DNA of 64,000 nt from Trissonchulus latispiculum (lineage: Eukaryota > Nematoda > Enoplea > Enoplida > Ironidae). The position numbers and the translations under genes were made by a program. Shown here one piece after another: positions 24,862 to 50,800 of this stretch. Position 1 is the first letter of the stretch, and each line of letters starts with the position of its first letter. A model generated the notes under the pieces. It was given only the letters and a program-made list of their open reading frames with translations, did no database searches and had not been told where the DNA came from. The stretch covers positions 1 through 64,000 of the forward strand of contig JASAND010022238.1 of NCBI GenBank assembly GCA_030248195.1, in the 5' to 3' direction.

Positions 24862-27478
24862 TTTGCGCCTCAGTTCAGGCACAAAACACCCGTCAACGTC
24901 AAATGTCAAAAAGTCAACGCGCAATGCCACCCAATTCTTACAATGCAGAAACACCGATCTAAATCCAAGCAGCCTCAATCTAAACACAAGGTGTGCGCCT
25001 CAGCCCAGGCACAAAACACCCATGTCATCGCACAAAGCAGCGAATTCTTATTGTGGAGCAACACCGATCTACATCAAAGTAGGCTCAATCTAAACACAAG
25101 GTGTGTGCCTCAGCCCAGGCACAAAACACCCATGTCATCACACAAAGCAGCGAATTCTTATTATGGAGCAACACCGATCTACATCAAAGTAGCCTCAATC
25201 TAAACTCAAGGTGTGCGCCTCAGCCCCGGCACAAAACACCCATGTCATCGCACAACGCAGCGAATTCTTACTATGCAGCAAGACCGCTCTACGTCCAAGC
25301 AGCCTCAATCCAAACTCCAGGTGTCAGCTTGCGCCTCAGCCTAGGCACAAAGCACACATGTCAACCCGCAAAGCCACCCAATTCTTACTATGCAGAAACA
25401 CCTATCTACATCCAAGAAGAATCAATCCAAACTCAAGGTGTGCGCCTCAGCCCAGGCACAAAACACCCATGTCATCGCGCAAAGCCACCTAATTTATACT
25501 ATGCAGCAACACCGATCTACATCCAAGCCGCCGCAATCCAAACACCAGGTGTCAGCTTGGGCCTCAGTTCAGGCACAAAACATCCATATCAACGCGCACA
25601 GCCAGCCACTCTTACTATGCAAGAAAACCCAGCTACATCAAAGCAGCCTCAATCTAAACTCAAGGTGTCTGTTTGCGCCTCAGCCTAGGCACAAAACAGC
25701 CACGTCAACGCGCACACGCAGCCAATTCTTACTATGCAGCAACATCGACCTACATCCAAGCAGCCGCAGTCCAAACTCCAGGTGTCAGCTTGCGCCTCAG
25801 CCTAGGCATAAAACACCCACGTCAACGCGCACAGCCAGCCACTCTTACTATGCGACAACACCCAGCTACGTCAAAGCAGCCTCAATCTAAACTCAAGGTG
25901 TCAGCTTGCGCCTCAGGCACGGCACAAAACACTCATGTCAACGCGCACAGCCAGCCACTCTTACTATGCAACAACACCCAGCTACGTCAAAGCAGCCTCA
26001 ATCTAAACTCAAGGTGTCAGCTTGCGCATCAGGCAAGGCACAAAACGCCCACGTCAACGCGCACAGCCAGCCACTCTTACTATGCAACAACACCCAGCTA
26101 TGTCAAAGCAGCCTCAATCTAAACTCAAGGTGTCAGCTTGCGCCTCAGGCAAGGCACAAAACACCCATGTCAACGCGCACAGCCAGCCACTCGTACTATG
26201 CAACAATACCGATCTACATCCAAGTAGCCGCAGTCCAAACTCCAGGTGTCAGCATGCGCCTCAGCCCAGGCACAAAACACCCACGTCAACGCGCACAGCC
26301 AGCCATCCTTACTATGCAACAACACCTATTTACATCCAAGCAGCCGCAGTCCATACTCCAGGTGTCAGCATGCGCCTCAGCCTAGGCAGAAAACACCCAC
26401 GTCAACGCGCACAGCCAGCCACTCTTACTATGCAACAACAACCATCTACATCCAAGCAGCCGCAGTCCAAACTCCAGGTGTCAGCTTACGCCTCAGCCTA
26501 GGCACAAAGCAGCCACATCAACGCGCACAGCCAGCCACTCTTACTATGCAACAACACCCAGCTACGTCAAAGCAGCCTCAATCTAAACTCAAGGTGTGAG
26601 CTTGCGCCTCAGGCAAGGCACAAAACACCCATGTCAACGCGCACAGCCAGCCACTCTTACTATGCAACAAAACCTATTTACATCCAAGCAGCCGCAGTCC
26701 AAACTCCAGGTGTCAGCATGCGCCTCAGCCTAGGCAGAAAACACCCACGTCAACGCGCACAGCCAGCCACTCTTACTATGCAACAACAACCATTTACATC
26801 CAAGCAGCCGCAGTCCAAACTCCAGGTGTCAGCTTACGCCTCAGCCTAGGCACAAAGCAGCCACATCAATGCGCACAGCCAGCCACTCTTACTATGCAAC
26901 AACACCTATCTACATCCAAGCAGCCGCAGTCCAAACTCCAGGTGTCAGCATGCGCCTCAGCCTAGGCAGAAAACACCCACGTCAACGCGCACAGCCAGCC
27001 ACTCTTACTATGCAACAACACCGATTTACATCCAAGCAGCCTCAATCTAAACTGAAGGTGTCAACTTGCGCCTCAGTCCTGGCACAAAACACCCATGTCA
27101 ACGCGCACATCAAGCCTCTCTTACTATGCAACAACACCCAGCTACGTCAAAGCAGCCTCAATCTAATCTCAAGGTGTCAGCTTGCGCCTCAGGCAAGGCA
27201 CAAAACACCCATGTCAACGCGCACAGCCAGCCACTCTTACTATGCAACAACACCCAGCTACGTCAAAGCAGCCTCAATATAAACTCAAGGTGTCAGCTTG
27301 CGCCTCAGGCAAGGCACAAAACACCCATGTCAACGCGCACAGCCAGCCACTCTTACCATGCAACATCACCTATATACATCCAGGCAGCCTCAATCCAATC
27401 TGAGGGTGTCCGCTTGCGCCTCAGCCTAGGCGCCAAACACCCACGTCAACGCGCACAGCCAGCCAGTCTTACTATGAC
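24862..27478. repeat. Minisatellite, about 23 units of 111-116 bp
   Basis: Units carry GCGCCTCAG, GGCACAAAACACCCA, CAACGCGCACAGCCAGCCAC and TTACTATGCAACAACACC. The period is about 111 bp in the first kilobase (starts 24989, 25100, 25210) and 116 bp later (25897, 26013, 26129). Two unit types occur in runs: one with CTACGTCAAAGCAGCCTCAA and one with CTACATCCAAGCAGCCGCAG. Open plus-strand frames of up to 195 codons cross the array, but the 116-bp period shifts frame at each unit, so this looks like satellite rather than coding sequence. Confidence 0.9.
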
Positions 27479-28640: not shown

Positions 28641-29116
28641 CAACTAACATCAAGCAAACCTCAAGCATCAATCTCAATAAACGCACGAACATCCATGCAC
28701 ACACTCACACACACACTCACTCACTCACACACACACACACCTATGCAAGATCTCTCTAAACAACACCAACAAAATCTATGTCACCCATTTCTATAACATT
28801 TCTTTCTTTAATCAAACCTATTTGTTAGAAATAATCAAAACAACTGAATGACACATTGTTTCTATAAAACTTGTTCTCGTTCAAAATTTTTGGGCGAATG
28901 AAATTTCTATACTATTAAAATCTAATAAAAGCAAAACGCACTCACAGGATCAAGCAACGTCCATCAGCTCCTGGCGGTGCCTGAAATAAAGCAGTTTGAA
29001 CATTAATAAGCACGAATACGACAGCTTAGGAAGAAAACAGTAGCGAATCGGGTGTAGGTGGTAGTCGCTAAATTAATACTCGAAAATATGCAGTTCTCCA
29101 TGGAGACAGCTGAGGT

Positions 29117-29985: not shown

Positions 29986-32426
29986 CGGACAATATTAGAA
30001 AATGAGTTCTCCCTTAGTCCACGTTGGCTGCGTGTGACGTGTAAAGGGAGGGACGGATGGCCGGGTACCCAATTTTATAGTCCCCAGTTTTGCTATTTTG
30101 TATAATATGCCCTAGTATGTCACCAAAACCACGACAGATTTCTGGTTGTTAAACAAAAATGGCTGTTAACCAAAGCAAGTTGAGATATTGCGGTACAAAT
30201 CCTACCAATTGAATATTACGTCAATGTGCATCGCTGAGGGTTACAAAGGCGCTTGCACTTAGGGCTGCAAAAGATTACGGCATGGCCAAGGCCAACACAT
30301 CATTTACTGCTGGGTAAACTGCTGACGAACTAGCTGAACAAATCTTGTAATAGGACCAATGTCCAAAAATGCACGAAATTCCCGGAATTCACACATTCCG
30401 GATTTCACAAATTCCGGATTTCACTGTAGCTTCGAACTATTTCTTGAATTCCGAGAAGTGAGCTCATTTCTGCGAGTTGGCACGGTTAGAAACTCTGCTC
30501 TGCTCAACAAGAGCTTTCGAATGATATCCATATTGAGGGGTATTGAAGAAAATTTCCAAAATCCGGAAAATCCGGTTTTCGCAAATTCCGGGAATTGAGT
30601 GCATTTTCAAGAGTTCGTTCTATTACAAAAGTTGTTCAACTCGGTGAGAGCTTCCGAATGATACCCATCTTCTGGGTGTTGAAGAAGAATTTTAAAATTC
30701 GGAAATTTTGAAATCCCAGAATTCCGGAAATTGGGTACATTTTCGTGAAAACAGTCTAAGAGCAAAAATTTGTAGTGGGAGCAGCTCCATTCGATTATAA
30801 AAACAAAATTTTGATTGCTATAAAAATTCTTCGAAAAACTAAAAATTTTAAATTTTCCGTAAATGAAACCCGGAATTTGGGATTTTTCCGGATTTTCGAA
30901 ATCACGGGTTCCTGAGAATTCTAAATATATACATCATATAGGCTACCTTCAAATGATAACTCAGGACAGGACATTTCAATTCCAAGATTTTTTGGTCAGA
31001 CTTTAGCTAATCTTGCGAACTCTAGCTAACTCTCGCTCTAAGGGCCTTTACGCAAATAGGTAAACAGATTTATATTTAACTCGATCATTTTTACAAATGA
31101 CCGAAGGGTTAATTTTAGCTGTGCTAGTTGAAATTTTTAATCGCTGAAAAATGTTGTCTGCGAAAGTAATGCCTCCTTAAACCCAAAAATTGGGCAATTT
31201 GGGCATTTTCAGAGGGTCTCAGCCAAGATAGCACAGGCAAATCAAGACAAGCCTTTGTGCTACAACTTGCTTCTCACCATATACAGAAGTATGCAAAATT
31301 GAAGCTATGAATCTTTATGTATCGTAAGAAACTAATTCGAACGAACTTCAAAGGAACCGACAACGGCGCCACTTCTTAAGCAATGTCTAAGGGCAAAGTT
31401 TGCATGCCAACCAATGGGTTGGTTCAGGACAGGGCACAACTTTTAATACCTACATCTTTGTGGAGTGATTTTGACTTTGAGCAATAACCGCCTTCTCCGA
31501 ATTTTGAAAACTCCTAGACAACCAGCGGTCCTACACGAAATAGTTTCTTAAGAGATATTACCACGTTAACTAAAAACATTTATATAAAGTTATACCCCGT
31601 TTGCTCTCACACAACTTTCATACAGACAAATTTGCTGAATACTGCTGAAACATGAATGATAAAAAGTTTTGCACTTGTCTTGTTATGTGGACCCATGGGC
31701 AGTGTGAAAAAGAGAAAAATCGGTGATGGTAAAAATTCGCGACCCAACGAAATAGCGGCAGTTGTAGCATTAATTTAATTTTGGAGCTTTTAGCATCCTG
31801 ATACCATAGGTTAGGTTTCAGCTGAACTTTTAAACTGGTTTAGTCATGCCGCAGTAGTTTCGTTATTTGGCAGTTGTTGCATTCATTAACACGGGTTCCG
31901 ATTCTGGGAGAGGATCTGCCCCGACTTCACTGAAGGGTGTACCCCTGAAAAATTCCAAAATTTTTAGTGGGCTTCCCCAAATTAGAAAAAACTAATTTTT
32001 AGAGTTTTAGATAAAATTAATAAAAATGTAGATACGTTGAAAAAATTGCTAAATTTTGCTAAACAATATGCAATTTTTGTAAACGAATTGCTGAGGTGTC
32101 AACCCTTTTTCCTTCTCGCTGAAGAGGACTACTAGTTCTTTGTTGGTCAGGGGGGTATGCACCCCCATTCCCCCACGTTATCCCATGGTTGTCGGTATGT
32201 AGTTACGCCGGTAAAAGCTGAAATCCATCTTGAAATTTCTGATGTCACAACTGATCAGCATTTCTTTTTAGAACTTTACTTTATTTGCTTTATTTATCTT
32301 TTTTCATTTAGAACTTTGCTGTAAATTTCCAATTTCCCGAACCAACCAGTCGTTTCGGCAAATTCTAAGGTCACTGTATCATTTCTGGACCCCTCTCATC
32401 CAAACTTCCTTGGACAATTGACAAAA
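29986..32426. other. Gene-free stretch, includes TTCCGG-rich repeats
   Basis: Positions 30359-30930 contain repeated AATTCCGGAATT and AAATCCGG motifs and a relative of the foldback arm from 18928. The downstream exons of the zinc-finger gene should lie to the left of 32805, but I found no convincing minus-strand exon here. Confidence 0.4.
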
Positions 32427-32431
32427 TAACA

Positions 32432-32770
32432 CCAAGAGTACATAATGATAAGACTATGACACTCAGCCTAGTGTCTGTTATCAGAGTAAAAACTAGGCTC
32501 AGTTCGCCAATGGCTGACCCCCACCCACAAATTGGACCCATCACTTCAAACAATTTTGGCCGCTTCACTTGCATGCTGATGCTCGAAAACACAACTATAC
32601 TCAGTTGGTTCAATGTGCGTCTGTTGCGAGCTTTAGAACACAAACACGAATTTCTTTGAGGTGATGGGACCAATTTGTGGGGGGTCAGCCGTTATTGAAA
32701 AGAGCATAGTTTTTGCTCTGATAACAGAGACTAGGCTTAGTGCCATACTCTTATCATTATGTACTCTTGC
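32432..32770. mobile_element. MITE of the GAGTACATAATGATAAGA family, copy 2, TSD TAACA
   Basis: The ends are CCAAGAGTACATAATGAT and, inverted, GCAAGAGTACATAATGAT, with TAACA at 32427-32431 and 32771-32775. Subterminal blocks GTCTGTTATCAGAGT and GGACCCATCACTTCAAA are mirrored. The element lies just downstream of exon 9 of the zinc-finger gene, probably inside its next intron. Confidence 0.78.
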
Positions 32771-32804: not shown

Positions 32805-32855
32805 ATCTTCGTGCGATGGATTCGCATACCCTTGAGGGTAGCGAATCCCCGATCG
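32805..32855 (-). CDS. Exon 9: second half of zinc finger 2
   Basis: After the transposon the frame resumes as D-R-G-F-A-T-L-K-G-M-R-I-H-R-T-K, which completes the CTFC half-finger left on exon 8. Without the insertion the finger is C-x2-C-x12-H. The donor GTAAGTC at 32804 leaves two bases of the next codon (AT), so the last histidine should start the next exon, which I could not find. Confidence 0.65.
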
Positions 32856-35800
32856 CTAGTGTTGTGCGTTGGCCGGTGCGGCCAATGGCTGGCCAATGGC
32901 CGGCCATTGGCCGGCCAAGCCATTGACCGTTGGCCGAGAAAATCTCGGCCAGTTGGCTTGGCCGGCCATTGGCCGTTGGCCGGCCAACGGCCAATGGCCA
33001 ACGGCCAATTGGCTGGCCGTTGGCCGTTGGCCGATGGCCGGCCACGGCCGTTGGCCAGCCAACGGCCAACGGCCAACTGGCTGGCCGTTGGCCGTTGGCT
33101 GGCCACTAACAGTGCTAAAATATTCAAGTTCAAATTTACTGATCTTGTGCGTTAACAGTGTTGAAAAATTTAATTTTGCTGCATAATATCGTAAACAGTT
33201 TGCTGTATAAACGTTATATTAGATACAGTACTACAGATTTTCACTAGACGTTGACAATTTTTACGTTATTAGCAAGTGCTTTACAAATAAATTTGCTAAT
33301 TGCATGCAACTAAGGTGTTAACAACGTAGTTTTTAAATTTGTCTAGCAGTCAACGTCTCATCAATTTATTGCGGTCCTCCAGCAAAATTTAAACAGAATT
33401 ATCTCGGGTGGAAGCTAAATGTTTGGAAAAACTATTTTACAAATATTGTAAATTGAACTATTGCAAATAAAGTTTAATTAAGTCGACGCCTAATTAAGCA
33501 CGGTAGACGAACAAAAATTGTAAATTCCAGCTCGCCAGCGTTGGCAAATAGCTAAAGAACGGCTAACAGCTTTCGGCCAAGCAACAGACAACGGCCAACC
33601 AGCGGCCAACGGCCAACCAGTTGGCCGTTGGCCATTGGCCGTTGGCCGGCCAACGGCCATTGGCCGGCCATCGGCCAACGGCCAACGGCCAGCCAATTGG
33701 CCGTTGGCCATTGGCCGTTGGCCGGCCACGGCCAATGGCCGGCCAACGGCCAACGGCCAATTGGCCGGCCAACTTCAAACTCCGGCCAAGCCAAGCCAAG
33801 CCAACCAAGGAAATTTTCGGCCAATCCCAACACTACCGATCGCAGAAGGTGCACTGATGGAAGGCACCGGCTGGCTGGATTGGCTGCGGCACGGGGGCTG
33901 GCTGGGGAACGGGAAGGGCTGGCTGAGGCTGCTGAGGCGGCTGCGGCGGCTGCGGTGGCTGGGGAGGGGCCGGCTGGGCTGGCTGGGCAGCCGGCTCCCT
34001 GTGCATCCGCCCGGCGTGGATTCGGAGGCCCCGATGGGAATCGAAGGCCCTCCCACAGCCGGGCACTGGGCAGGCTGAAATAGAGAAAAACATAAATATA
34101 GACAGATTTATGATTTATTTATTTACATTGACTGTAAACATAAAAACAAGAGTGCATAATCGCAAGAAGAAGAGTAAGAAACTAGAGGGCTTCTCTTCTT
34201 GGCATTGCACCAAACGGGGACCAAAATGGGTTCCCGTTTGGGGGGGTGAGCAGAGGGGTAGTTTCGCGAAAAGAGGTCCCCGTTCTGTGGTTTTATGGGG
34301 GGGGGGGTATGCAAAAGGGGTCCCAGTTTGGGGGGTGGGGGGGAAACCAACAGCCAATAAGATTCAGTCAATCATATGTTATAGTCTGACTTGGCTACCC
34401 CCTCCGAACGGGTTAAAAGACCCTCAGTCTGATTCTACCCCCCCACCAAACGAGGACCTCTTTTTGCTACCCCATCAAACGGGGAGGGAGTATGCCTGTC
34501 TACCCCCACCAAACGGGGGAACATTCGCGTATTGTGGGCGGAGCACCGTTACGCAATGTCAAGAAGAGAAGCCCTCTAGTGACCTACTCTTCTTCTTATA
34601 TATAGTGCAATTACGCACTCTTGCTAAAAAGCAAACACTAAGTAGACCAAAGACGCTCTCCATGACCGCTGCAGCGCCGCCATAGCTGACCTGACCGGGC
34701 GATCCAAACCGGTCCGCCAGTCGGGTCGAAAGTGGCCGGTCGACCTCTCAATACAGGCCGCTCGATACCAGTTTTGGTCTGTGTTTGGTGTCCTGTACAG
34801 AGGTTTTGCACTCAACGATGCATAGAGTTTGCTCCCAGTTATGCATAGCAAATAATAGCACGTATTGGCTTCGTTCAACCTACAAACCGGCCGACCTCAA
34901 CTTGCGTTAATTCGCAGCGCCAATTAGCATAATGACCTTGCTATCACATACCAAATTGATCGTGTTCACAAAACCTATCTGATTTGAAAGTAACCAGCCG
35001 GATTTCTATGATTAACATAAATACGTGCCGATGGGAAAACAACTATTTCAGGACACGTGCCGACCGTTTTCGAAGCTCACCCCGCCACTAAGAGGAGTGT
35101 TTTTGATGATTCGGGCAAATTTACTGGCGATTCGGAGATATCTGACCGCTGCTCCATCCTTTCCCTGAAACACTTCGCCTCCAGCCCTTTACATTTGTGC
35201 AACGATTTGGCTCCGCCGGGAATCGAACATCGGACCTCCCGGACTGCCTCCCAACGACGGAGCCACGAGAAAAGAGCGCACAACTTGGATAAAGTGGGAT
35301 TTGATGGGACAGAAAACCAGAAACTCTGGTGGGATTTGATAGATGGGATCCGAGAATCCGTCCCGTTTGCCAACTCTAGCACGAAATTCTTTATCAGAGC
35401 TCTTTTATAATTATTAATTTTTCAAATGAAACAACGTAATTCAACTTACCGTAGAAGCCGCCATACTGGGGGACGTCAAAGTCCCGAAGGGCCATACCTT
35501 GGACCGCCTAAACAAAAACAACCAACACATTAGTATTATTTAACTAATTGCTAGCTATGTAAGTAATTAATAGCTGAAGACGAGATTCCAAGTATACTTA
35601 AAACCATTCGCGATGAATTAGAAATTTTGCTACTGTAACTGGGATTGATGAGACCCGTCTTAATCGAAGCTATACAAAGTCAACAACATTAACAGGAAAC
35701 GATACTATTTATTTAATTATTCTGTACACTTACCCGGAGTTCCTCGACCTGGGCTGGCTCCAAGGCCGTTCCTGAAACAAAATATATAATAAAAATAATT

Positions 35801-38800
35801 ATGATAAAACGAAAACATTTGTCACTATCTGGTTGCTCCAGATTTAATTTAATCTGGCAATAAGGCAGATCCATCATCTACACTAATACACTATTTAACA
35901 ATGCATTGGTGAAGCGAATTTTTCTTCTGTAACATTGTCTAATGCAATCATGGTCATGTCACCTATGGCCTCTCTAATGTAAAGTTTAGTGTGAATGACT
36001 GAATTCAGGATTGAAAGATGTGAAGAAAAGTGTCCAGGGCGGGGATCGAACCGCCCAGCCTTGGTTTAGAAGTAGAACGCTCTACCGCTTGCGCCACATC
36101 CCAGAACACACTAGAGAGACTAGATTAGTACTTTGATTTCAACCTTTCTGAGTTGCTGATATTAAACAATAGTTATCACTGGCAGCCAAAGCTTAAAGTT
36201 TACCTCCGCGGCGGTCGATGACGCCCTGCCTGGCGGCTTCCGCTTCGGCGGCCTGCATCGGACGTCGGGCCGGGCGCCGATTTTGGGGCGGCTGTGGCTG
36301 CTGTGGCTGTGGCAGAGGCTGCGGCTGCGGTTGAGGCGGAGGCGGAGGAGGAGGAGGTGGTGGCTGAGGCTGCTGCGGCTGAGGCTGAGGCGGCGGCAGC
36401 TGCTGAGGTTGCGGCTGTGGTGGCTGTTGCTGAGGCTGTTGAGGCGGAGACGGAGGCTGAGGTGGAGGCGGTGGCGGTGGCTGCAGCTGTTGCTGAGGCT
36501 GCGGTTGTGGCTGTTGAGGAGGAGGCGGAGGCTGAGGCTGCTGCGGCTGCTGTTGCTGCGGTGGCTGTGGCTGTGGCTGTGGCGAAGCCGGAGGCGGAGA
36601 CGGAGGCGGAGGCGGTGGCAGCTGCTGAGGTTGAGGCTGTTGCTGTTGCTGTAGCTGTTGCAGTTGCCTGGTGGCTGCAGGCAGCAACTGCGGCTCCGGG
36701 GCCGGCCGGTCGCAAGGCCTCTGAAATAGCGAAAAGATCAAAATCAAAATAGGGAAGAACAGAACATGAACAATACAGATTTGCAAAACTGTGTAGATTA
36801 TCAGTTTTTTGGAATCGCGATGTATCAAGTGAACGTGAACACAAGTCCGCTTTCACAGTGCTCTCTCCGCCTGAAAGGAGTTTAGAAATGAGTAGTACAG
36901 TTGCATAGTATAAACGTTGACGAAATTGACGGATTTAAAAATAGCATTGCAATCAGAAATGTGCAGGAGGGGAAGTTCTGGGGGGGGTGAAGGGCGGCCG
37001 AAGGCCGCCGAAAAACCGGATTTTCCGGTTTTTTACCGGAAAAATCCGGATTCTGGGGGGGGGGGGTGAGGGACCCCCCTGGGGGGGTGAGCTCAGGTCT
37101 GGGGGGGGTAAACCCCCCCAAGCACATGTATGATTGCAATGCTCGAATTCATGGCATATTAGCAAGAGTTCATGACTTTATTTTTGAGAATCCGAGTAAG
37201 CTACTGGAGGGCTTCCCTTCTTGGCATTGCGTAAGAAGGGCGCTCCGACCACAAGTACTAGAAGTCTGTACGTGCCGAATTTTTGCGGCCCCACCCGGCC
37301 CGGCTCGGCCCGTGAAAAAGTTTTCTCGGCCCGCCCGGCCCGGCTAATCCAAATTTTCGGACCAGCCTGGCCCGCTAATATTTTTTCAATTTTTTTTTCA
37401 ATTTTTTTTTCGAAAATGCCATAAACATGTTCCGAAAACAGTATTTTTCAAAATAGTATCATTGCTTTCAGTTTTTTCAAAGAAAATGTGTTTTTCTAAA
37501 TTTTTTCTAAAAAGTTTTTGAGTTTTTAATGCCCTTACAATGGCGTCATGCAAGTATTCAATACCCGTACAATCGGTACAAACAAACCGCCGTTGAGTTT
37601 AGCGCGGGCTGCTGGATCTGCCGGGTAGAATGCCTGCCCACTCAAAGTCAAACCGAACCTGTAATACAAAGCTTAGAAATTTTAATTAAAATTCACAAGT
37701 ACGTTTCTTACCCTGGCCGGCACATCTTCGCCCTCCGGACTGGATCGTCGCTTCCGGGAGGGGCCCGGGCTGGCTGAGACCACGGACCGCCTCCCTTCCG
37801 ACGACGTAGAGGGCAGAGAGCGCTGGCTGGGCCGGGAGGAGGTGGACGGCCCCCGTCCGGAGGATCCCGGGCTGGCTGAGACCCAGGAGGACTCCATCCG
37901 GGAGGAGGCGGAGGAGGAGGGCCAGGTGGAGGCGGCGGAGGGGAGCGACCACTCACTCGTCTCCGCGCTCCCCTCCTGACTGGACCGGCGGGCTGGAGTG
38001 GGACTGGGAGGAGGAGGCCGTTCTCCGGAGGGGCCCGGCGGGGTGGCTGAGGTCCCGGCGGACTGCCTCCGTTCCGGCGAGGGGGAGGGGCTGGACCAGT
38101 GGCTGCATCGAGGTCGGGCGTCGGAGGACTGGCTGGCTGAAATAAGAACAAAAACGAAAATAGTAACTGAAAAACATCTGAAACCAAGATTACATAATGA
38201 TAAGAGTATGCTACTTGGCAAGCTCTCTGTTATCAGAGCAAAAACTATGCTCTGCTCGCTAACGGCCCTCTTCCGTCAAATTAGACCCTCTTCAAAATTC
38301 TCAGAAATGTCTGTGTTCTAAATCTCGCAGCAGACACAATATTCGCTAACACACTGCTTGTGTTTTCGAGCTTAAGCACTTAAACCTTGAGCGAGTGAGC
38401 GTACCCCCGTTTCGACTAGGCACTTTGCTGGGGGGGCACTAGGGTCAAATTTGTGGGAGGGGGTGGGCCGTTAGCGAGCGGAGCATACGTTGATAACTTA
38501 CCGTGATAACAGAGAGCTTGTCTAGTGGCACAGTCTTATTATTATGTACTCCTGCTAAAACAGAGCGACGTATCTATAGCATCAATAGTTCCTCAGAAGC
38601 TACCCTGAGAGTTTACTGTATCTGTGAGCTGTATCTGTGTATATGTATCTGTATCTGACAGTCAAACAAAAATTTCATATCAAGGCTTGTTGTTAAGTTA
38701 ATTCTACGTTTTAATCAATAATTAGTTAGTGGTTCTTTCTTACCGTCCTCGACTTCCATCGGCTCCACCGGAGAGAGGGCGGCTGGCTGTGGCTGCGGGG

Positions 38801-41800
38801 AAGGCGGCTGTTGTTGTTGTGGCTGGCGGCGTGGGCGGCGGCGGGGTGGGATGGGCGGCTTCCCGGTGACCCTGCAATTAGAATTACATAGTCAAATTTG
38901 ATGTTAAGAATTGTGTAACACATTATGCACCAGAATATTGTAGCAGTAATATGGTAGTCTCAATTAAAACAACAACTAGCAATTACTGCACAAGCGAAAG
39001 TCAAACGGGCTTAGTTTAATCAAATGTACGTAATTAATAAGAATGTGACGTTTGCTAGTCTGTGTTGTTATTTTTGGTGACATGATATGACATGATATGC
39101 AGTATGCACACTAGCTGCCGACCGTTTCCTATAAATTCGGACCTGGTGGCCCTTCTTCCCCAGAAATCAGTACCTTGTCGAAACGGGGCTGCGCTCACTC
39201 GGCTGTAGATTTTCGCGTTGGAGTCCAAAATAAGGAAACCACTGACATAACATTGTGCGCTTCATTCAACACGTAATCGATCGCTCCCGTTTCGACCAGG
39301 TACTGATTTCTGGGAGTCACTGAAGAAGGTCAGCCGTTATGGCGCAGATCCACAGTGTAATAACAACGAGCGTGGGCTCTTACAGACTCCAGTAGAAACT
39401 AAAGGGATTTTTGTAGTTTTCTGCAAAAGTGTTCCTGTGCGGTCAGTCACTAGCGGAGCTTCCTGTACTTTCCACAAAAGCAATTTTTGTATTCTTAGCC
39501 GGCCTCTCGAATAGTAAAATCACAGGAATTTTCTGTAGAAAATACTGAAGAAACCTGCAGTTTTGTTCGACATGTTTGACAATCCTAAATCAGATACCAA
39601 AACTGTAGTTTTTACAAGATAAAACCTGTAATTCTACTGGAGCAACCTGTTAATAGAAAAGGAGGCCGATCCCAAAATATTTTCGGCAGCGAGCGGCTGT
39701 TACAAAATAATCACCCACGTGGTGTTACAAAACTGAAAATTTGAGAAGGTTCAGAAAATTTCATTCTTCAAAAATTATGACCGTTGTCGCCCTTATATAC
39801 CCCGTTTGCTTTATCAGTGTATCGAGTACTTTCCCGTAGAGTAAACCTGCAAAACCAATGGAAACTACAGGTCTCATTTGTATTGAATACTACTCTAACT
39901 TGTAATCCATTCTACCAAAGTATATCCTGTTAACACTACCAAGAATGACCTGATTCTGCTTACCGAGAGGGGGAGAAGGTTGGCGGCGTGACCACGAAGG
40001 TCGCATTGCCGCCAACCTCAAAGGTCTCGTTAAGGGCCGGGCGGGCTGGAGGGCTGACTGACCCGGAGACCTCCGTCGGGTTGGAGAAGGAGGGGCTGGA
40101 AAAGGAGGGGCCACCGGAGAAGGAGGAGGAGGTTTGGCCGGATGGCTGGCTGGAGGGACCGGGCTGGGGACTGGGCGGCGTGGCTGGCTGGTGGGCGCTG
40201 GAGGGGCCTGGCTGAGAAGGGGGCGTGGTTGGCTGGCGGCTGGCGGAGGTGGCTGGCGGGTGAGGGAGATTCAGGGAGGTGGCTGGCGGGGGACTCCCTG
40301 AATACTCCGTCGGGTCGGAAAAGGACGGGCTGGAACAGGAAGCGGAGGAGGAGGATGATGAGGAGGAAGAGGAGGAGGAGGAAGAAGAAGCAGTGGCTGG
40401 CTTTTTCTGCTTCTTCTTCCGTTTTTTGGATGAGGAGGAGGCTGGCTGGCTGGGGGGAGAGGCTGGCTGATTGGCTGGGAGGCTGGGGCTGGGGCTGGAC
40501 CGTCGGGGGGACTTTCGGCCCCCTAAAACAATAAATAAAACAACTATTAATTTGTAACAATAAGCATAAAAAGTATATAACATTCGTGATACATCAAACA
40601 CAAACGACAAATCGCATGATTGGCCTGTAAAACCAGTAGAACCTTAAAAAACGCTTGCATTGAAATGCAGTTGTACTGTAATATTAGCTTCGGATTATAC
40701 ATATAATTTAGATTTCAGCTTTATATTTTCAGGACTGAACCCTGAACAAAGTTCTATAATTTCCCCAAAATTCGATAGCCTTCTGACGTAGATTCATAAA
40801 ATATTAAGGCGATAAAATATCAAACCGATCTTTTGTCTATCCCTAATCGAAAGCTGTAAATTTAGCAACTGCAAAAAATAATGAAATTTAGTTAAGTTAA
40901 ATTTAGTACATAGGTTTCGGCTCGTAGTTACAGAAGCAAATTGAGACCACAGGAGCTACGCTGCCGGTTCATTAAAGGGCTATTTCCGACGTGTTTGCGG
41001 AAATGAATCCAGAAGCGGAAAACGCGGACAACTCGAACAAAGGGAAAAGTGTGATCAAAAAGGGACCATATCACTATCTATCCTTGGTCGAAGCCGGCTC
41101 TCAACAAAATCTGTTCCTATTGTGCACCTATCAGGACAACCGAATTTAAGTCGTAGCGAGAATTCGTTTAAGTAAGGAATTCCAGAGCTTTAAGTGGTGT
41201 TTGAGCCCTAATTTTTAAGTCAAAACTGAACATAGTTCTTTTGCATAATTAATAAGTTCAAACAGAAATTCTGGTAGTATCAAAGCCATTGACTTTCTCC
41301 GAATGCAAAAAATTCCAGCATATTCAATTAGATCATTAATGGGGAGTTGTCATTGGCGCTGAACCAGAAGCCAGCCAACTGAACCAGGTCAAAGCGTGTC
41401 AACGTCTGCCAGATGGAGTGAAAAGTAGTTAGCGTTGGTTAAGATTAGTCAAGTCAAGATTAAAATTATAATTAAGACCAAAATTAAGATTTCGCATCAA
41501 TTCTTCATAGAAATTCACAATTCAGTAAACAAATAAGGTTTTGTTAGAAAGTAACTTAAGGTGCTAGTTCCGGTTAGTCTATTTTTGGACTTTAAAAGCG
41601 CAATTGTCGTTGAAATTCATTGAAATAGGTATGCTACAATTTTATCATTTGGCCTAGAAAACACTTTAGGAAAGTCGAGGCGTGAAAATTTGAGTTTTGA
41701 GGAAATTAGCATTAAGTCTGCCATAACTTGCAAAACTTATAGTCATTCGAATCCGTTCATTAAGACCAACAACTGTACTCCTCAGGATATTCTTCGATTC

Positions 41801-44800
41801 CTTACGGTTTATGAGATAACAAACGAAAATTTATTTTTGAGGTCCAAAACTGACATTTTTCGAAAAATTAAATATGGCAATATTTCGACAGCTTCAACAG
41901 CGCCCATCGGTCAAGTATTGCCCATATTTGAGCCGAAATGGACATGCTATGCCTAACGGAGAGCTTTCTGGGGCATATCTGCCTACGCACAGCAACGAAA
42001 ATGTGAAATTTTTAAAATCGTAACCAGATTGTTTTGAACACGGATTGCTCTCAACTCGTGCAAGCACACGCATATTTGAGACAATTGCCGAGGGCTATTT
42101 TTCATGGTTTCGCGTTTTGTCTTTGTGGTCGAGAAAAATAGGCGTCCAAACTTGAAAATTTTGACGAAAATCGGACAAAATTTATATTTTTCTCAATATC
42201 TTGAGTTTACTTAATCATTAAACGATTTCAGAAAAAATAGCCCTCGGGAAGACATTTCTTTTGAAGCCTGAACAGGTCGCTTTTCTTTAAGTTTCCTAAA
42301 ATTCGAAAAATCCATATTAAAACATTGTTTTCATGCTACCGCATGATAGGGTTGAAGAGTTGAAATGAGACAGGTATACTCGACCTAGTTGTAACAAGCA
42401 TTTTCTATGCTTTAAAGTGATATAGAAATTATCGCTGAACTCCAAGAATTGAGCAAATTACAGTCTTTCAAACTTTGCTGCAAATACCAGAACCAGCACC
42501 TTAAAAATTGACAACTTTAATACTAGCACACTTTTAAAAGCAAGTATTTAATCTTTGAACACTTTACCATTTGATTCCATTTGAATAATCAACAATAAAA
42601 AATTAAATTAAACATGAACACAAGTTGATAGCTTTAAAATTGATACCAGAATAAGATTACTGAAAATTTGAAATTTTCCGCACAAAACGGTATGCAAATT
42701 AGTTAGTGAATGTTTCGATCCTGGCTTCCAGTACTGACGTTTCGTTTACTCGTTTCGTTTCGTTTCGTACAGTCTTAAAACTTTAGTCTCAATTCAAGCT
42801 TTCTGATTATATTTCAGTTTTACGTTTTCAGGAACAGGTCCATGAATCAAAGTTTCAAAGTTGCTCTCAAATTTGTAGTCTGCAGGACGTTGATGCGCAT
42901 TAATGTTTTTGATCGAAAGCTGGACGATTTAAAAATTGCCAAATTTATGATATTTACAAGCTGTATTCCACTCGGATATCGCCAATAATACTGGCTCGGA
43001 GACTGGCCGACTAAGCCAGGCCAATCCGTGTCAGGCAGGACTTGTTTTCTGGGTAGTAAAATGTAGTGTTACTTCGGTTACATTAGCCTGTTAATTGTCA
43101 GAAGAGATGAAGAAAGTCGAACCGAACTTTGCGACAAACTGAGGTCGACTGGGCTCGCTTCGCCAAGCTTGACATTTAAATTTCGTCCTACTGCACCGAA
43201 TTTCGATTATTTCCACATTGCCTTAGCGTCTTTTCAAGAGAGTGCAGAGTAGAGTTAAAATTAACTCGATCTTATTCATGAAAGAGTTAAAAGAGGAAAA
43301 CTCAAACTTGAGTGGGCATTAAAACTAGTTAAAACAGCTGATTTTAACGCTACTCTAGCCGACCCTTTCTTGAAAAGTCAAATTACCAACATTAGCGACA
43401 CACTGCGAGGCGCCAGCCACAGCGACTGCAATTATTTGGATTTAGTGATGCTGGTATTAGGTGAAGGCATTGCTCTACTAAACTAGGGGCCTTTTCAAGA
43501 AAGGGTAGAGTAGAGTTAAAATTAACTCGATCCTTTTCATGAAACAGTTAAAAGAGTTAATTCTAACTCTACTCAACGCAACTCTACTCTACTCTACGCT
43601 ACCCTTTCTACCCATTCAGGCCTGTTCTGCATCCAAAATTTTTTCTTAACATGCTATAAAATATCGAAAGTAACTAGATTAGAATATCGAAATAGAATAT
43701 CTACGGGAATCACGAGGCAACCTTTTTGGTTTTTTACGCAGAATAAGACAAATGTATATATTAATCTTACCAACTACAAAATTCTTGAAAATTCAACACT
43801 GAAATTTAGAATTTTGTACAAAATTTTTTTAATTGTAAAAATTCTTTGGAGCCTCTCAATTGCTTTCTGACGATCTTATCTAAGTGGAAGACCTTTATAC
43901 ATATTTATATTCAATGATAATTTTAATTTAACCTTCAATATCATAGTATTTCTCGAATGCGACAAATTGTACAACATTTTGCTATCTGATAACATAAAAT
44001 TAGTACGAAAACCTGGAAACATGGGAATTTACGCGTAAAAGTTCTTGTAAAACCAAAGTTATGAGTACAGATGAAATGAAATAAGTTACAAGTCCGTCTT
44101 ACTAAAAATATACACCACACACATTGGCTTAGATTCGAAGCCAGCTCAACATTTAGAAAAAATAGGCTCGGAACGGAAGGTATGAAGAAAGCTAAGGTAT
44201 TTAGAAAATTAGAGTGTAAAATTGGAAACAGAATACAGTCTTCACTGAGATTGTTGGCAATTTGAAGTTCGGTCGAATCACAATTCTTCATTGGGGTCGA
44301 CTCGGCTCGACAGTCAAGATGGAGCCGCGAGCCAAAATCCTCATCTCAAATTGGCCTCATCTTTCTTTAGTCTGCCCTGCCCTTTTTAACTAGTCCGTGG
44401 TCCGCGTAATTCGCCCGTTGCTGATTGGCTTAGTTTTCATCGCTCTATCACTTCGATGAGGAGTCGGAGAAAAAGCATAGTTACGTTTGATTGGCGTTCT
44501 TTCTGTTGGAACTGTAAAGATTAGCCACAATAGAAAACCGTTTTTTGTCAATTTTCGATTCCCAACTTTCGGCAGTTTCAACCATTTCAGACAACCCTAG
44601 CATCACTCAATTCGTCTTGTCAATCTTTCCGCTTTCAATTCGATTAATTAGGCTACCAGAATAAGAGATGGAAATAATTATAGAGTGACCATAAGAAGCG
44701 CTTTGTGCAATTGCCGTGAAAAAGTTTTATAATGCCACTGTTGGTGTACGTGTAACAGGGTTCGAGCATTCGAATTTGAGTCAATAGGTACTCTATTCAA

Positions 44801-47800
44801 GTTTTCTTGATGGTTTGGCCAGAGGAAATTTTCGTACAATGATCAAAAAATAAATTGGTTTCCTTCTCAACCACTGATATACAGTACCAATAATGTAAAG
44901 GCTGTTGAGAAACGAGAAAAGCTTACCATTGGACTCCATGAAAGCAAAATTAATCAATTAATTAATTAAATAATAAAACTTAAAAATAAAAAAATAACTT
45001 GAACTTGATAGCTTTTAGAAATTATATATGGCTAATGAAATTTCTTAAAATTCTTCTTTTTTCACCTGCTAGTATGCAAATTAGTTTCTTCTTCATTCTG
45101 AAGTTTTGACGACAGGCAGCGGCTTTTGACTTCAGGAATTTCATGCAACCACCAGTTTTTAAATGACTGAGTGCGAGATTTAAATTCCCGCGATTTCAAC
45201 AAAAAATGATGATTTATATACTACAATGTAAATGGACGATTATTTTTAGTAAAAAATATCGATACACATTAATTCTTCGTAAATTATGCCAACTGAAATT
45301 TGATATTAGAACTTATATTCCAAAGTAATTTTTCAACAACTTACCATTTGATTCCATTTGAAAATCAACAATTAAAATTAAATTTAAAAAAGAGCGCAGC
45401 TTGATAGCAGTAAAATTGATAGCAGTGTAAAAAAGTTCTGAAAATTTAAATTTTCCACACACAATGATATGCAAATTAGTTTGTGAATGATTAGAGCCTG
45501 GCTTGTGTCTTCCGTCTTCCAGTATAATATATATATACTGTTTATTCCCGTATGCAGGGCTCATGAAACAGTTCCAAAATTGCTGTCAAATTTGTAGTCC
45601 CAGAAGTAGTCAGTCCAAAATTGCTGTCAAGTTTATAGTCTCCAGTAGTTGCTATGTATGGCTATGCCTTGATCGAAAGCTACAAGATTTTAAAACTGGT
45701 ATACACAATTCCGGCGGTATCCATTCAGGCCTTTTCTGCCTCAATAATTTATTCTTAACTTATGCTGTAAAATATCGAAAGAAACTGCGATGAACGCCCG
45801 AGGGAATCACGGGGCAACTTTCTTGGGTTTAACGCAGAATAAGAAAAACGGTATAATCTTACATACGGCAAAATTCTTGAAAACTCAGCAATACAATTTA
45901 GATTTTTTACAAAATATTTTGAATTATAAAAATTCTTCAGAACCTCTCAATTAGGTACCTCTTATGGTACCCCGATCTTAACTGAGTCGAGGATCATTAT
46001 ACGTAATTATAATCAAGAATATTTTTAGTTTAACCTCTTAAGATCATAGTATATATATCTCGAACACTGGAAATAGATAAATATACAACCTTCTTGCTAT
46101 CTGACAAAATAAAAATAGTACGAAACCCTGGAAACACGGGAAGGTTTACAATTTACTGGTAAAATTCTTTATGAAAACTAAAAATTTACACCACACACGT
46201 TGACTTTGGCTTCAATTCAAAGACCGCCTAATATTTTAGAAAAAATTGACGTTGAAGTTATGAAGAAATCTAACGAATATTGAAAATTAGGCTGTAAGCT
46301 TGAAAACAGAAAACGGACTTCAATAAATTTATTGGCAATTTTTTTGAACACGCTCAGAAGTATGACAATGAAATTGGGTAGAATCATTGCGTCTAAATTG
46401 GCCTTCTTTCTGTTGTAACGGTAAAGGTTTCCAGTTATAACAGAAAACCGTTTTTGTCAATTCTCGTCTTCAACTTTTAGCAGTTTTAACGATTTGGCAC
46501 AACTTTAGTATCTCTGAATTCGTCTGGTCAATCTTTCCGCTTCCAATTCGATTAGTTAGCCTCACCAAAACAAACCAGAGAAAAATGGAATTGTTTAGAT
46601 TGGAGATGAAAACAGAATGACCAAAGGAAACGCCTTGTGTATTTGACGAGAAAAAGCTAATTGGCAATAAACTTTCGCCGAGAATTTGACTGGAATAGGA
46701 TTCGAGTAGTGTTTGAGGCCGCCTAAGCCGGCCGGTTAACGGCCGACCGGCCGGCCGGCCGCCGGCTGGGATACAAATCACCAATCAGAAATTTACAAAA
46801 TAGATCAACTAAGCATAAAATGGACTCCTCCAAATCTAGTTTTGCTAATTTTTTATGCTATGCTATGCTGTGCTGTTTTTCTATTGAATTTGTCAGCCTC
46901 CAGTATGCACCCATACAAAGTTTCAAAGTAAAAATTTAAAAAAAGTTAGGGTTGGCGGGGAAAAGCGCAAAAAATCCGTCAGTCTTTCCGCTTTCAGTTT
47001 GATTAACTAGACTAACCAGAATAGGCTAGAGAGTTACATGAAATTGTTTAGGTTGGAGATGAAAACAAAATGACCAAAGGATGCGCTTTGTATATTTGAT
47101 GAGAAAAAGTATTTATTGAAGCTATTTGGTAATAAACTTTCACCGAGAAATTGATCGGAATTCGGAATAGGATTCGAGCCTTTGAATTTAGAGTCAAAGT
47201 CAACTCTATTTTGTAATATTTGAGCTGAGCAGCAGCAAAGAATCGGGAATCAGATCTACGAAGAAATGGAGATTGTCTATTCCATCCAATCGATGAAGTT
47301 AAAAACTGAAGACGACATTCACTGATTGTTGAGAATTTGGCTAACCGGAAAATGTCTCACTGCATTGTGGGCAACAATTTTTAAATGAAAAGTACCTACC
47401 AGTGATGGAACCGGGTCACTTAGGCTTGACCCGGTGACCCGTTGACCCGGTGACCCGGTTTTCCTGAAAATTCAAAAAATTGCCAAAAATTTTTGATTTT
47501 CCCCCAAAACGTTAAATTTTTGTCTTCCAATGTTCCATGACCACCCCAAAGAAGAAATAACTATGGCAGTATGTTTGCTCTAGGTTTTTAAAATGTATCT
47601 AATAGTAGCTGTAGGATTTTATGCAGAAATTAGTTGACAATGCCAATAATTTAACCGTCTGCTAAATTTAGCAATCTAAAATGAGTACTTGTCCAAAACC
47701 GCGGAGAAGGAGTCCATTAAAATTTGGTTTATTCCTATTGCGTTAACTTAAGTTCAATTAAATGGTTCGCTTAAACCTTCGACCTTCAACCTTAACCTTG

Positions 47801-50800
47801 TTTGTAAAAACGATTGGCAAACCATACAATATGATTTATGCAATGATCATGAAACCGGTAAAGCTAAACAATAAGCTGCCAGATACAGGCAGATTCCCTC
47901 AAGCTGCGAAAATGCTCAAGACTAAAATATAAGAAATAAAAGTAAATTAATAGTGCGCACTGCACATCGAAAAAATTAAGCAAATTGATATTGCACATAG
48001 AACACAAACTTAACTTAAAGTTTTAGCTTGGTAAGCCAAACATTTTTAAAATTTGAGGTAAATTCAGAAAACCGGGTCAAGACCGGGTCGAAGCTCTTGA
48101 CCCGGTGACCCGGTGACCCGGTCCAAAAAGTGACCCGAACTGACCCGGTGACCCGGTGACCCGGTTCCATCTCTGGTACCTACTGCCTAAAATAAAAAAT
48201 ACAACTTTTTAGCTGCGTACTCCGTTTCACTTCTTTAGGTTCTGCTCTCTGTCTGAGCACATTTTTTATTTAGACACTTTCACTTTAGTTCTAGTTCTAA
48301 ACCATTTCCCGATTTGCCTCGTATTTCTTTCGTTCATTTCTAAAAACTATGCATAGAAATTTTGATGGATCAAGTCCAATGCGAATGCCCCCAAACAATA
48401 CCTAAGGCCGAATCCCTTATGAACTTATAAACATAAAAGATAATCTGCCCTGCTTTCGGATCAAATTCAAGTTCTGGTGGCAATTAACCACAAAAACATT
48501 TACTTCATTTATGTGCTTTGGTTCCACTTCACATTGGTTTGTACAGAGGAAATTTCCGTACAACGATCAAGATATCTTCTTCTCAACTAATTATATACAG
48601 TAGCAATAATGTAGACTTTTGCAAAAGAGAAAAGCTTACCATCAGACTCCATGAAAGCAAAATCAAATTAATAAATTACTTTAATAAAAAATTAAAATTA
48701 AAATTAAAAAATTCAACTTGATAGCATTTATAAATCATAGCGAGTGAAATTTGTTAAAATTTTTCTTCACGTGTTGATATGCAAATTAGTTTCTCATTCA
48801 TTCCGAAACTAGGCTGCATTACGTAACATTGCACCGAGAAGCAGCTGCTTTTGACTTCTGGAATTTCATGCAACGACCAGCTCTTTAAATGCATGAATTC
48901 AAGCTTCAAATTCCCCGGATTTCAACAAAAATGATGATTCATGCATTTTAGATGAACAAATAGTGTAGAGGAAAAGTTTCCTGCTAATCTGATTTAAATT
49001 TGTCAGTTTTGCGTTTTGCCAACAAACTAAGCTAAATGACCTACTGGTGAATGCTACATACATGTAATTGGGGTTTTAAATTAGATAGAATGGGCAAGGT
49101 ATAAAAGCCTAACACGACCAATAAATTTTGAAATCTGCAAAATAGTGCACAGTCTTTGGGTTTGTGCATTTCATCGAAGGAAGGGTATCGGACTATCGGC
49201 CATCAATCATAATAAATTGTTTGCAAAGCAACGACTCACCGTTAAACTCCATAATAAAGCAAACTAATAAATCAATAAAAGCAAAATCAAAATTAATAAT
49301 ATATAGTCAAAATTTAAAATTAACTTGATAGCGTTTAAAATTAATAGCATAATGAAGTTTGTTAGATTTCTGCTTTTTCACGTCCTATTATGCAAATCAG
49401 TTTGTCACTGATTCGCAACCAACTCGTACCTATTCTCTGAAATAGATAGCAGTCTTTAGTTGTCTTGAGACATCGACTTTTTGCTGACCTTATTCACTGT
49501 TCGATAAAATAAATCGGATTTCAGCTTCATGATAAACATTCTGATTCTGATTTTGATTTAGAATTTTGATTTTGAAAGACTCTCCTTCTGCCAATGCATT
49601 TAACAATCGTAGAATATCTATAGAATACATTTTCGTTGGTCGGAAAAGATATCAATTTGCCTAAATCACATATTATTACCTACCTATGTATCAAGATGGT
49701 GGAGTCGAATTTGGAATTTACATCTTTCTAAATTTCAATTTCAAATTTTATAGACTTTGAATTTGAAATTTTGAGAATGAACTGATCCGTGCTTCTATGT
49801 AAATGCAACAAAAAATATCTAGAAGGATCAATAAATATCGACCTCATCAGAAGCGATAGATCTCTATCTGCGGGCTCGAATTGACATAAAACGGAATCTA
49901 CATTTCCCATCGATTCCTGACGCAGGCAAACGAACTGGCATATTCTGCGGACGTTGAGCAATTTTTTTGTGAATTTCCAGCAAAACATTTCGTCAGCAAT
50001 CCTTGAACTTTTTTTAGACAGACAGCTTTTCGATAACATTCTGGTTAAAATCCATACTTATATTTTCATGTACTTACACCCTACTTATGAAGTTTCTATT
50101 TATTGCTTGGGTCGGATACTGGAGGGTTTTCTACACGGCAAGCACAAAATAACGACACCAGTGCTGGGCCAAAACTGGGCAAAGTTTCGGCTGAACTAGA
50201 TAGACTCAAATCGAATTTGTAACTGAAATTGAGTATGAGCGTGCCTTCTACAACAATTCGGTTGGTTTGTTGGTTGGCGTTGCTTTTGTGGAGGAAAAGT
50301 CCAACACCAGCATAAAATTCAACTTTGCGTTGCGCTTGCGATAGTGTACGGACCCCTAAACTTTTCAGCAATAGTATTGGGCGTTTTCCGAAGCGGCCAA
50401 TGGCAGGCCATTGGCTGCCGAGCATTTCTGGGCCAATTGTCTTGGCCGCCCGTTGGTCCTAACTCCTAGACCGACAGTTTGGCCGTTGGTCATTCTCTGG
50501 CTGTTGACCGAACTGGAAAGTATATGACTGGAGCTCCAAAGATCTGGTCTTTTGAGTGTGTAAAAAAGGAGCCATCTATTGTATTCAACGTGGACGTTAA
50601 GTTTTTTCAATCACTAGTAACATAGACATCATATTCGATAGGACAAGCGCAGATCTGGAAGTGTGTATTCAGGATCAGCCGAGGTTTGCGGAACCAACTT
50701 TTAATCGGACCGCTAAGACCGCCGGGTCTTGAAGTGAGCTATCGGGTTGGCCGGGGGATAGTTCAACAAGCCCGTGGTCTGGCTTGGGAATTTTCTGCGC

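Follow-up and report, generated by a model that had tools for sequence, protein, structure and literature searches.

A non-autonomous hAT element interrupts the second of two C2H2 fingers encoded by a zinc-finger gene on the minus strand of the window (the whole stretch of 64,000 nucleotides that was analysed), and the insertion probably truncates one redundant copy of that gene. The presence of the element in finger 2 is an observation and agrees with an earlier sequence-only reading. That reading had further proposed that the element acts as a new in-frame intron, for which the sequence gives no support.

The interrupted gene

The features of the gene and of the insertion are as follows, in coordinates of the window.

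28950..28980 (-), terminal exon, completing finger 2 (...KMHRQELMDVA stop); from splice score and paralogues
32805..34074 (-), zinc-finger exon interrupted by the element; the empty state is 34074-33836 plus 32848-32805
32849..32856 (-), target-site duplication (TSD), gene-downstream copy, GCGATCGG; from sequence comparison
32856..33836 (-), potential GT...AG intron of 981 nt with weak sites; from sequence and splice scores
32857..33835 (-), non-autonomous hAT element of 979 bp, with TIR TAGTGTTG and subterminal arrays of GGCCAACGGCC-type repeats
33833..33835 (-), in-frame TAG stop formed by the element's first three bases, read if the element is retained
33836..33843 (-), TSD, gene-upstream copy, GCGATCGG; from sequence comparison
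34001..34072 (-), finger 1, CPVPGCGRAFDSHRGLRIHAGRMH; from a Pfam finger match
35450..35507 (-), upstream coding exon, present in eight of nine long stretches of paralogue sequence, with a deletion in L062
35734..35771 (-), upstream coding exon, likewise present in eight of the nine stretches, with an insertion in L062
36204..36720 (-), upstream coding exon, P/Q-rich; gene model
37712..38136 (-), upstream coding exon, S/P-rich; gene model
38744..38871 (-), upstream coding exon; gene model
39964..40522 (-), upstream coding exon, S/P-rich; the 5'-most mapped exon, beyond which the gene may extend

Eight exon pieces with consistent phases give 670 open codons of a Pro/Gln/Ser-rich protein that ends in the two C2H2 fingers. 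The terminal exon (28980-28950) finishes finger 2 as ...IHRTKMHRQELMDVA-stop, and all five paralogues whose fetched sequence extends so far (L058, L061, L062, L066, and L083) retain its acceptor and frame. A terminal exon at 31944 was dropped in favor of the one at 28980, which has the stronger acceptor (8.6 vs 4.8) and completes finger 2. Since the mapped exons are all open and the native splice sites intact, the interrupted copy is not visibly decayed. Searches of a protein database gave no match to the finger region, whether 97 aa of it were used (797 candidates, E limit 0.001) or 163 aa (3575 candidates, E limit 0.01). A search of the PDB gave 29 matches with an E value of 1 or less, the best at 1.6e-5; almost all are ordinary C2H2 proteins, and one very weak match (E 0.36) is to a reverse-transcriptase-like protein.

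On the gene strand the sequence runs ...TTCT, GCGATCGG, TAGTGTTGGGATTGGCC ... GGCCAACGCACAACACTA, GCGATCGG, GGATTCGC..., the element termini being TAGTGTTG...CAACACTA and the TIR a perfect 8 bp at either element end. The placement of the element between CTFCDR and GFATLKG is borne out both by this sequence and by the empty site of the paralogues, and the 8-bp duplication is perfect, as had been stated. If the element is retained, translation ends at the TAG that opens it (CTFCDR-stop), which is the immediate stop foreseen for the unspliced state.

The element and its family

The hAT identity given in the sequence-only reading holds on the strength of the 8-bp TSD, the TIR, and the target preference of the family. 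Short TIRs of the YARNG type are a trait of the hAT superfamily, and the TIR of the element is of this type. The 17-bp element end has 671 exact occurrences in the 734-Mb genome, against 0 for the backward control. A whole-element search (best 40 of 1865 candidates scored) yielded 39 copies besides that of the window, and 38 of these were fetched; the one left out, on C19140, lies at a contig end. Perfect 8-bp TSDs flank 33 of the 38 fetched copies, and two more match at 7 of 8 bases; the remaining three (L018, L044, and L046) are without a TSD, L044 and L046 aligning in part only. Position 2 of the perfect TSDs is T in 22/33 and position 7 is A in 24/33, in keeping with the nTnnnnAn pattern reported for Hermes (PMC10368747). 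The family is thus a high-copy non-autonomous hAT family. It shares the 8-bp TSD, short TIR, subterminal repeats, nTnnnnAn preference, and high copy number with hAT non-autonomous elements and MITEs (Hermes, Ac/Ds kin), whereas the TSD in the window, GCGATCGG, does not itself fit nTnnnnAn.

With 150 of 176 candidates scored, the genome has at least 113 matches to the hAT dimerisation domain; four of them lie in open frames of 591-601 aa, and none of the matches from these scored candidates is on the contig of the window. A degenerate end resembling this hAT family lies at 50372-50415 (82% over 44 bp), and an Rfam scan of the window returned nothing at gathering scores. A viral contig (L047) found by an exact 19-base search has only those 19 bases in common with the element family and was set aside as a chance match.

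Paralogues, empty site, and selection

Searches with the upstream flank as DNA and the empty-state finger region as protein place the zinc-finger gene in a family of 40 rows at 32 distinct places in the genome, window included. Sequence was fetched for 25 of the 31 other places, the six left out being the weakest and matching mainly the finger-1 part of the query. Finger 2 is unbroken, with the spacing C-x2-C-x12-H, in 25/25 fetched paralogues as well as in the empty state of the window. Nine close paralogues each have a single GCGATCGG at the site (L062 has a second copy elsewhere in its stretch) and so display the pre-insertion state; in all nine, the alignments of the two flanks have just the 8 TSD bases in common. 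No allelic empty copy was seen in the flank search (best 40 of 2837 candidates scored), where the best other match is 88% identical and therefore a paralogue.

Over the finger exon, dN/dS between the window and eight close paralogues is 0.16-0.32 (L062 was dropped for its frameshift), and pN within finger 2 is 0.000 among nine copies compared. Judged from these substitution patterns, the zinc-finger family is maintained and under purifying selection. In the close paralogue L062 (G000:C20325:75400-84752), finger 1 has a frameshift and two upstream exons carry indels, which makes it a second damaged member of the family. This locus and the interrupted copy suggest that single family members may be lost.

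Age of the insertion

The insertion probably postdates the split from the closest paralogue, which is about 90% identical over one 2-kb stretch, because the TSD is perfect and the element is absent from every fetched paralogue. The description of the insertion as young thus likely stands on the scale of the paralogue split only, and it is not clear-cut, for the element copy in the window is the most diverged from the consensus. Among 37 rows, the compared copies being the best matches to the window copy, the latter is furthest from their consensus, at 61 of 975 positions (6.3%, against 1.2-5.3% in the other rows). It falls within a group of 11 rows with 100/100 support, on an end branch of 0.04.

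The window copy also has the most private changes of all rows (28), 22 of which are clustered in two blocks at 33106-33123 (element 713-730) and 33265-33318 (element 518-571), as if replaced; the clusters are likely replaced segments. Dating from all 28 substitutions was rejected because of these clusters. The six isolated private changes lie within the range of 0-11 over the 37 rows, window included. If the divergence did reflect true age, a gene free of decay would speak for a copy that is still functional.

Splice potential of the insertion

The dinucleotides on which the intron proposal was built are present: GT at 33836/33835 and AG at 32857/32856 delimit 981 removable nucleotides, and the join 33837/32855 reads CTFC-DR-DR-GFATLKG in frame. 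The arithmetic of six extra nucleotides and an added Asp-Arg was correct, as was the change of finger spacing from x12 to x14. The frame is kept automatically, because 8-2=6 whenever GT...AG occurs at both TIR/TSD junctions, so its preservation adds no evidence. The sole coincidence at the locus is a G at both ends of the duplication.

Splice sites were scored with generic animal frequencies, not those of this organism. On this scale the junction donor scores 1.85, compared to 6.8-10.6 for the seven native donors, and the junction acceptor -1.7 (-1.73), compared to 7.3-10.5 for the native acceptors (seven internal plus the terminal one), so that both junction sites fall far below every native one. 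Of the 3370 GTs on the gene strand, 23% do as well or better, and so do 63% of its 3469 AGs. The donor, CGATCG/GTAGTG, has G, T, G at +4/+5/+6, and the acceptor, AACGCACAACACTAG, is without a polypyrimidine tract, its side reading GGCCAACGCACAACAC-TAG.

In finger 2, the added Asp-Arg would lie after the second Cys and ahead of the core Phe. With it, the two-finger match falls from 29.4 to 21.6 bits for Pfam zf-C2H2 (cut-off 25.2) and from 32.3 to 26.2 bits for zf-C2H2_4 (cut-off 27). For finger 2 alone, which is below both cut-offs even before the addition, the zf-C2H2 match (18.0) is lost and the zf-C2H2_4 score drops from 22.8 to 16.8.

Several sites outscore the junction, namely the internal acceptors 33178 (5.6) and 33489 (5.0) and the donor 33867 (3.9). 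When GT/AG pairs around the element were scanned, 33 combinations proved open and in frame; nine of them keep CTFC and GFATLKGMRIH, all through donors 33836 or 33833, and none of the 33 restores the x12 spacing. Skipping of the finger exon shifts the frame to YGGFYGTARS-stop, and the protein then ends before finger 1.

Junctions of the same kind recur in the element family. In element orientation, 4/33 perfect TSDs are of the form G..G and 3/33 are C..C, which is G..G on the other strand, so that GT...AG-giving ends, a trait looked for in introners and present in the window, occur in 7/66 strand-cases. An open reading frame of more than 200 aa spans the element site in 4 of the 35 copies tested out of 38 fetched, and the four comprise (i) a reverse transcriptase, (ii) a gypsy-type RNase H, (iii) an AAA_12 helicase ORF, in which the site lies 20 codons before the end, and (iv) a repeated ORF (L022). 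Long spanning ORFs are hardly enriched, since random flank positions give a median of 73 aa, a 90th percentile of 156 aa, and a 95th percentile of 236 aa. Within this small sample (four long ORFs in 35 copies), the sequences give no sign that the family is adapted to be introns.

L022 (G000:C17687:1-2080) was considered as a second in-frame case, having G..G on the ORF strand, and was rejected because its ORF belongs to a repeated family. This hAT-interrupted ORF has at least 151 genome matches (150 of 720 candidates scored), two of which are the locus itself; some of the matches sit in frames that stay open for about 2,350 aa, and the first 130 residues of the ORF have no Pfam match.

Known systems

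A report on introners (PMC9860276) describes some with TSD-borne splice sites, one of them adding codons, and, as regards animals and land plants, places introners in two animal groups only. A review (PMC3443670) names transposon insertion among the proposed routes of intron gain and cites the maize Dissociation case. Given the introner and Dissociation reports, the intron mechanism proposed for the window is of an already known kind. As in introners, transposon ends and the TSD supply GT and AG, and codons may be added. In contrast to introners, the TSDs of this element family give no GT...AG pair in 3/4 copies with the longer ORFs (L022 is the exception), and splice-site strength of a usable order is lacking at the junctions on the generic frequencies. 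Maize Ds, which Giroux et al. in 1994 reportedly found to be spliced as an intron, is likewise an exonic hAT insertion that splicing might remove; there the splicing is said to have been shown by RNA, whereas here it would be a prediction from DNA.

Competing explanations

In the preferred reading, a hAT transposase acting in trans would have inserted the non-autonomous element into finger 2 after the gene copies had split, the target being a member of a large two-finger family that selection maintains. Transcripts would mostly retain the element or be mis-spliced, for example by skipping the exon. The interrupted copy would then yield either no protein or one whose finger 2 does not work, and its function would be covered by other members of the family. 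The GT...AG ends would be a by-product of TA-ended hAT termini falling on a GnnnnnnG target. Counting against truncation are the open exons and intact native sites of the interrupted copy and, if divergence reflects true age, the position of its element as the most diverged of 37 rows. The lack of visible decay in the gene copy would suit removal of 33836-32856 by the spliceosome as a new 981-nt intron, with half of each splice site drawn from the TSD and Asp-Arg added. The GT...AG at both junctions, the kept frame, the 670 codons open through the join, and the introner precedent point the same way, but the donor is poor at +4 to +6, the acceptor without a pyrimidine tract is no better than most AGs, the x12 spacing is unvarying in the fetched paralogues, the two-finger zf-C2H2 score would sink below its cut-off, and such ends arise by chance elsewhere in the family. 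Splicing of this kind is very improbable. The broader proposition, that a TA-ended hAT with an 8-bp TSD on GnnnnnnG is always an in-frame intron precursor adding two codons and that the locus is a newborn hAT-derived intron, is just as hard to credit.

A partial rescue through minor altered isoforms, made by exon skipping or by internal sites that turn part of the element into exon, is unlikely. The better-scoring sites at 33178, 33489, and 33867 and the 33 open combinations favor it, yet exon skipping shifts the frame and the nine combinations that keep both halves of finger 2 all depend on weak donors, with x12 never regained. The zinc-finger gene may also be carried by a large block, either mobile or duplicated segmentally, so that a repeat would lie within a repeat; this is possible but doubtful and is compatible with truncation of one gene copy. 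Homology collinear with paralogue contigs over about 20962-42566, introns included and pieced together from several paralogues, speaks for such a block, as do the 32 matching places in the genome; against it, no ends, TSD, or transposition gene were noticed, though not by systematic search, and the finger exon appears to be under purifying selection.

As a disrupted gene copy the locus is ordinary. Were the intron proposal true, it would be a newborn intron for which at least 25 uninterrupted paralogues serve as controls, and the element family, with 671 or more ends, would contain dozens more intron candidates; if a hAT end and a GnnnnnnG target sufficed for splicing, a single step could turn a hAT element into an intron. 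With the same exon once interrupted and many times empty, the genome offers a clean natural experiment.

The surrounding block

From the alignments, a large duplicated block or repeat appears to carry the zinc-finger gene. The collinear homology at 20962-42566 extends to several contigs over about 21 kb, introns included. Further matches at 42549-47140, which overlap each other in L084, may represent dispersed repeats. A tandem array at 24913-27476 (period 116 bp, 22 copies) is common to the paralogous loci L061, L062, L066, and L083. The intron just after the finger exon contains an imperfect inverted repeat at 32433-32769; in several paralogous introns, one and the same place is matched by this stretch in either orientation.
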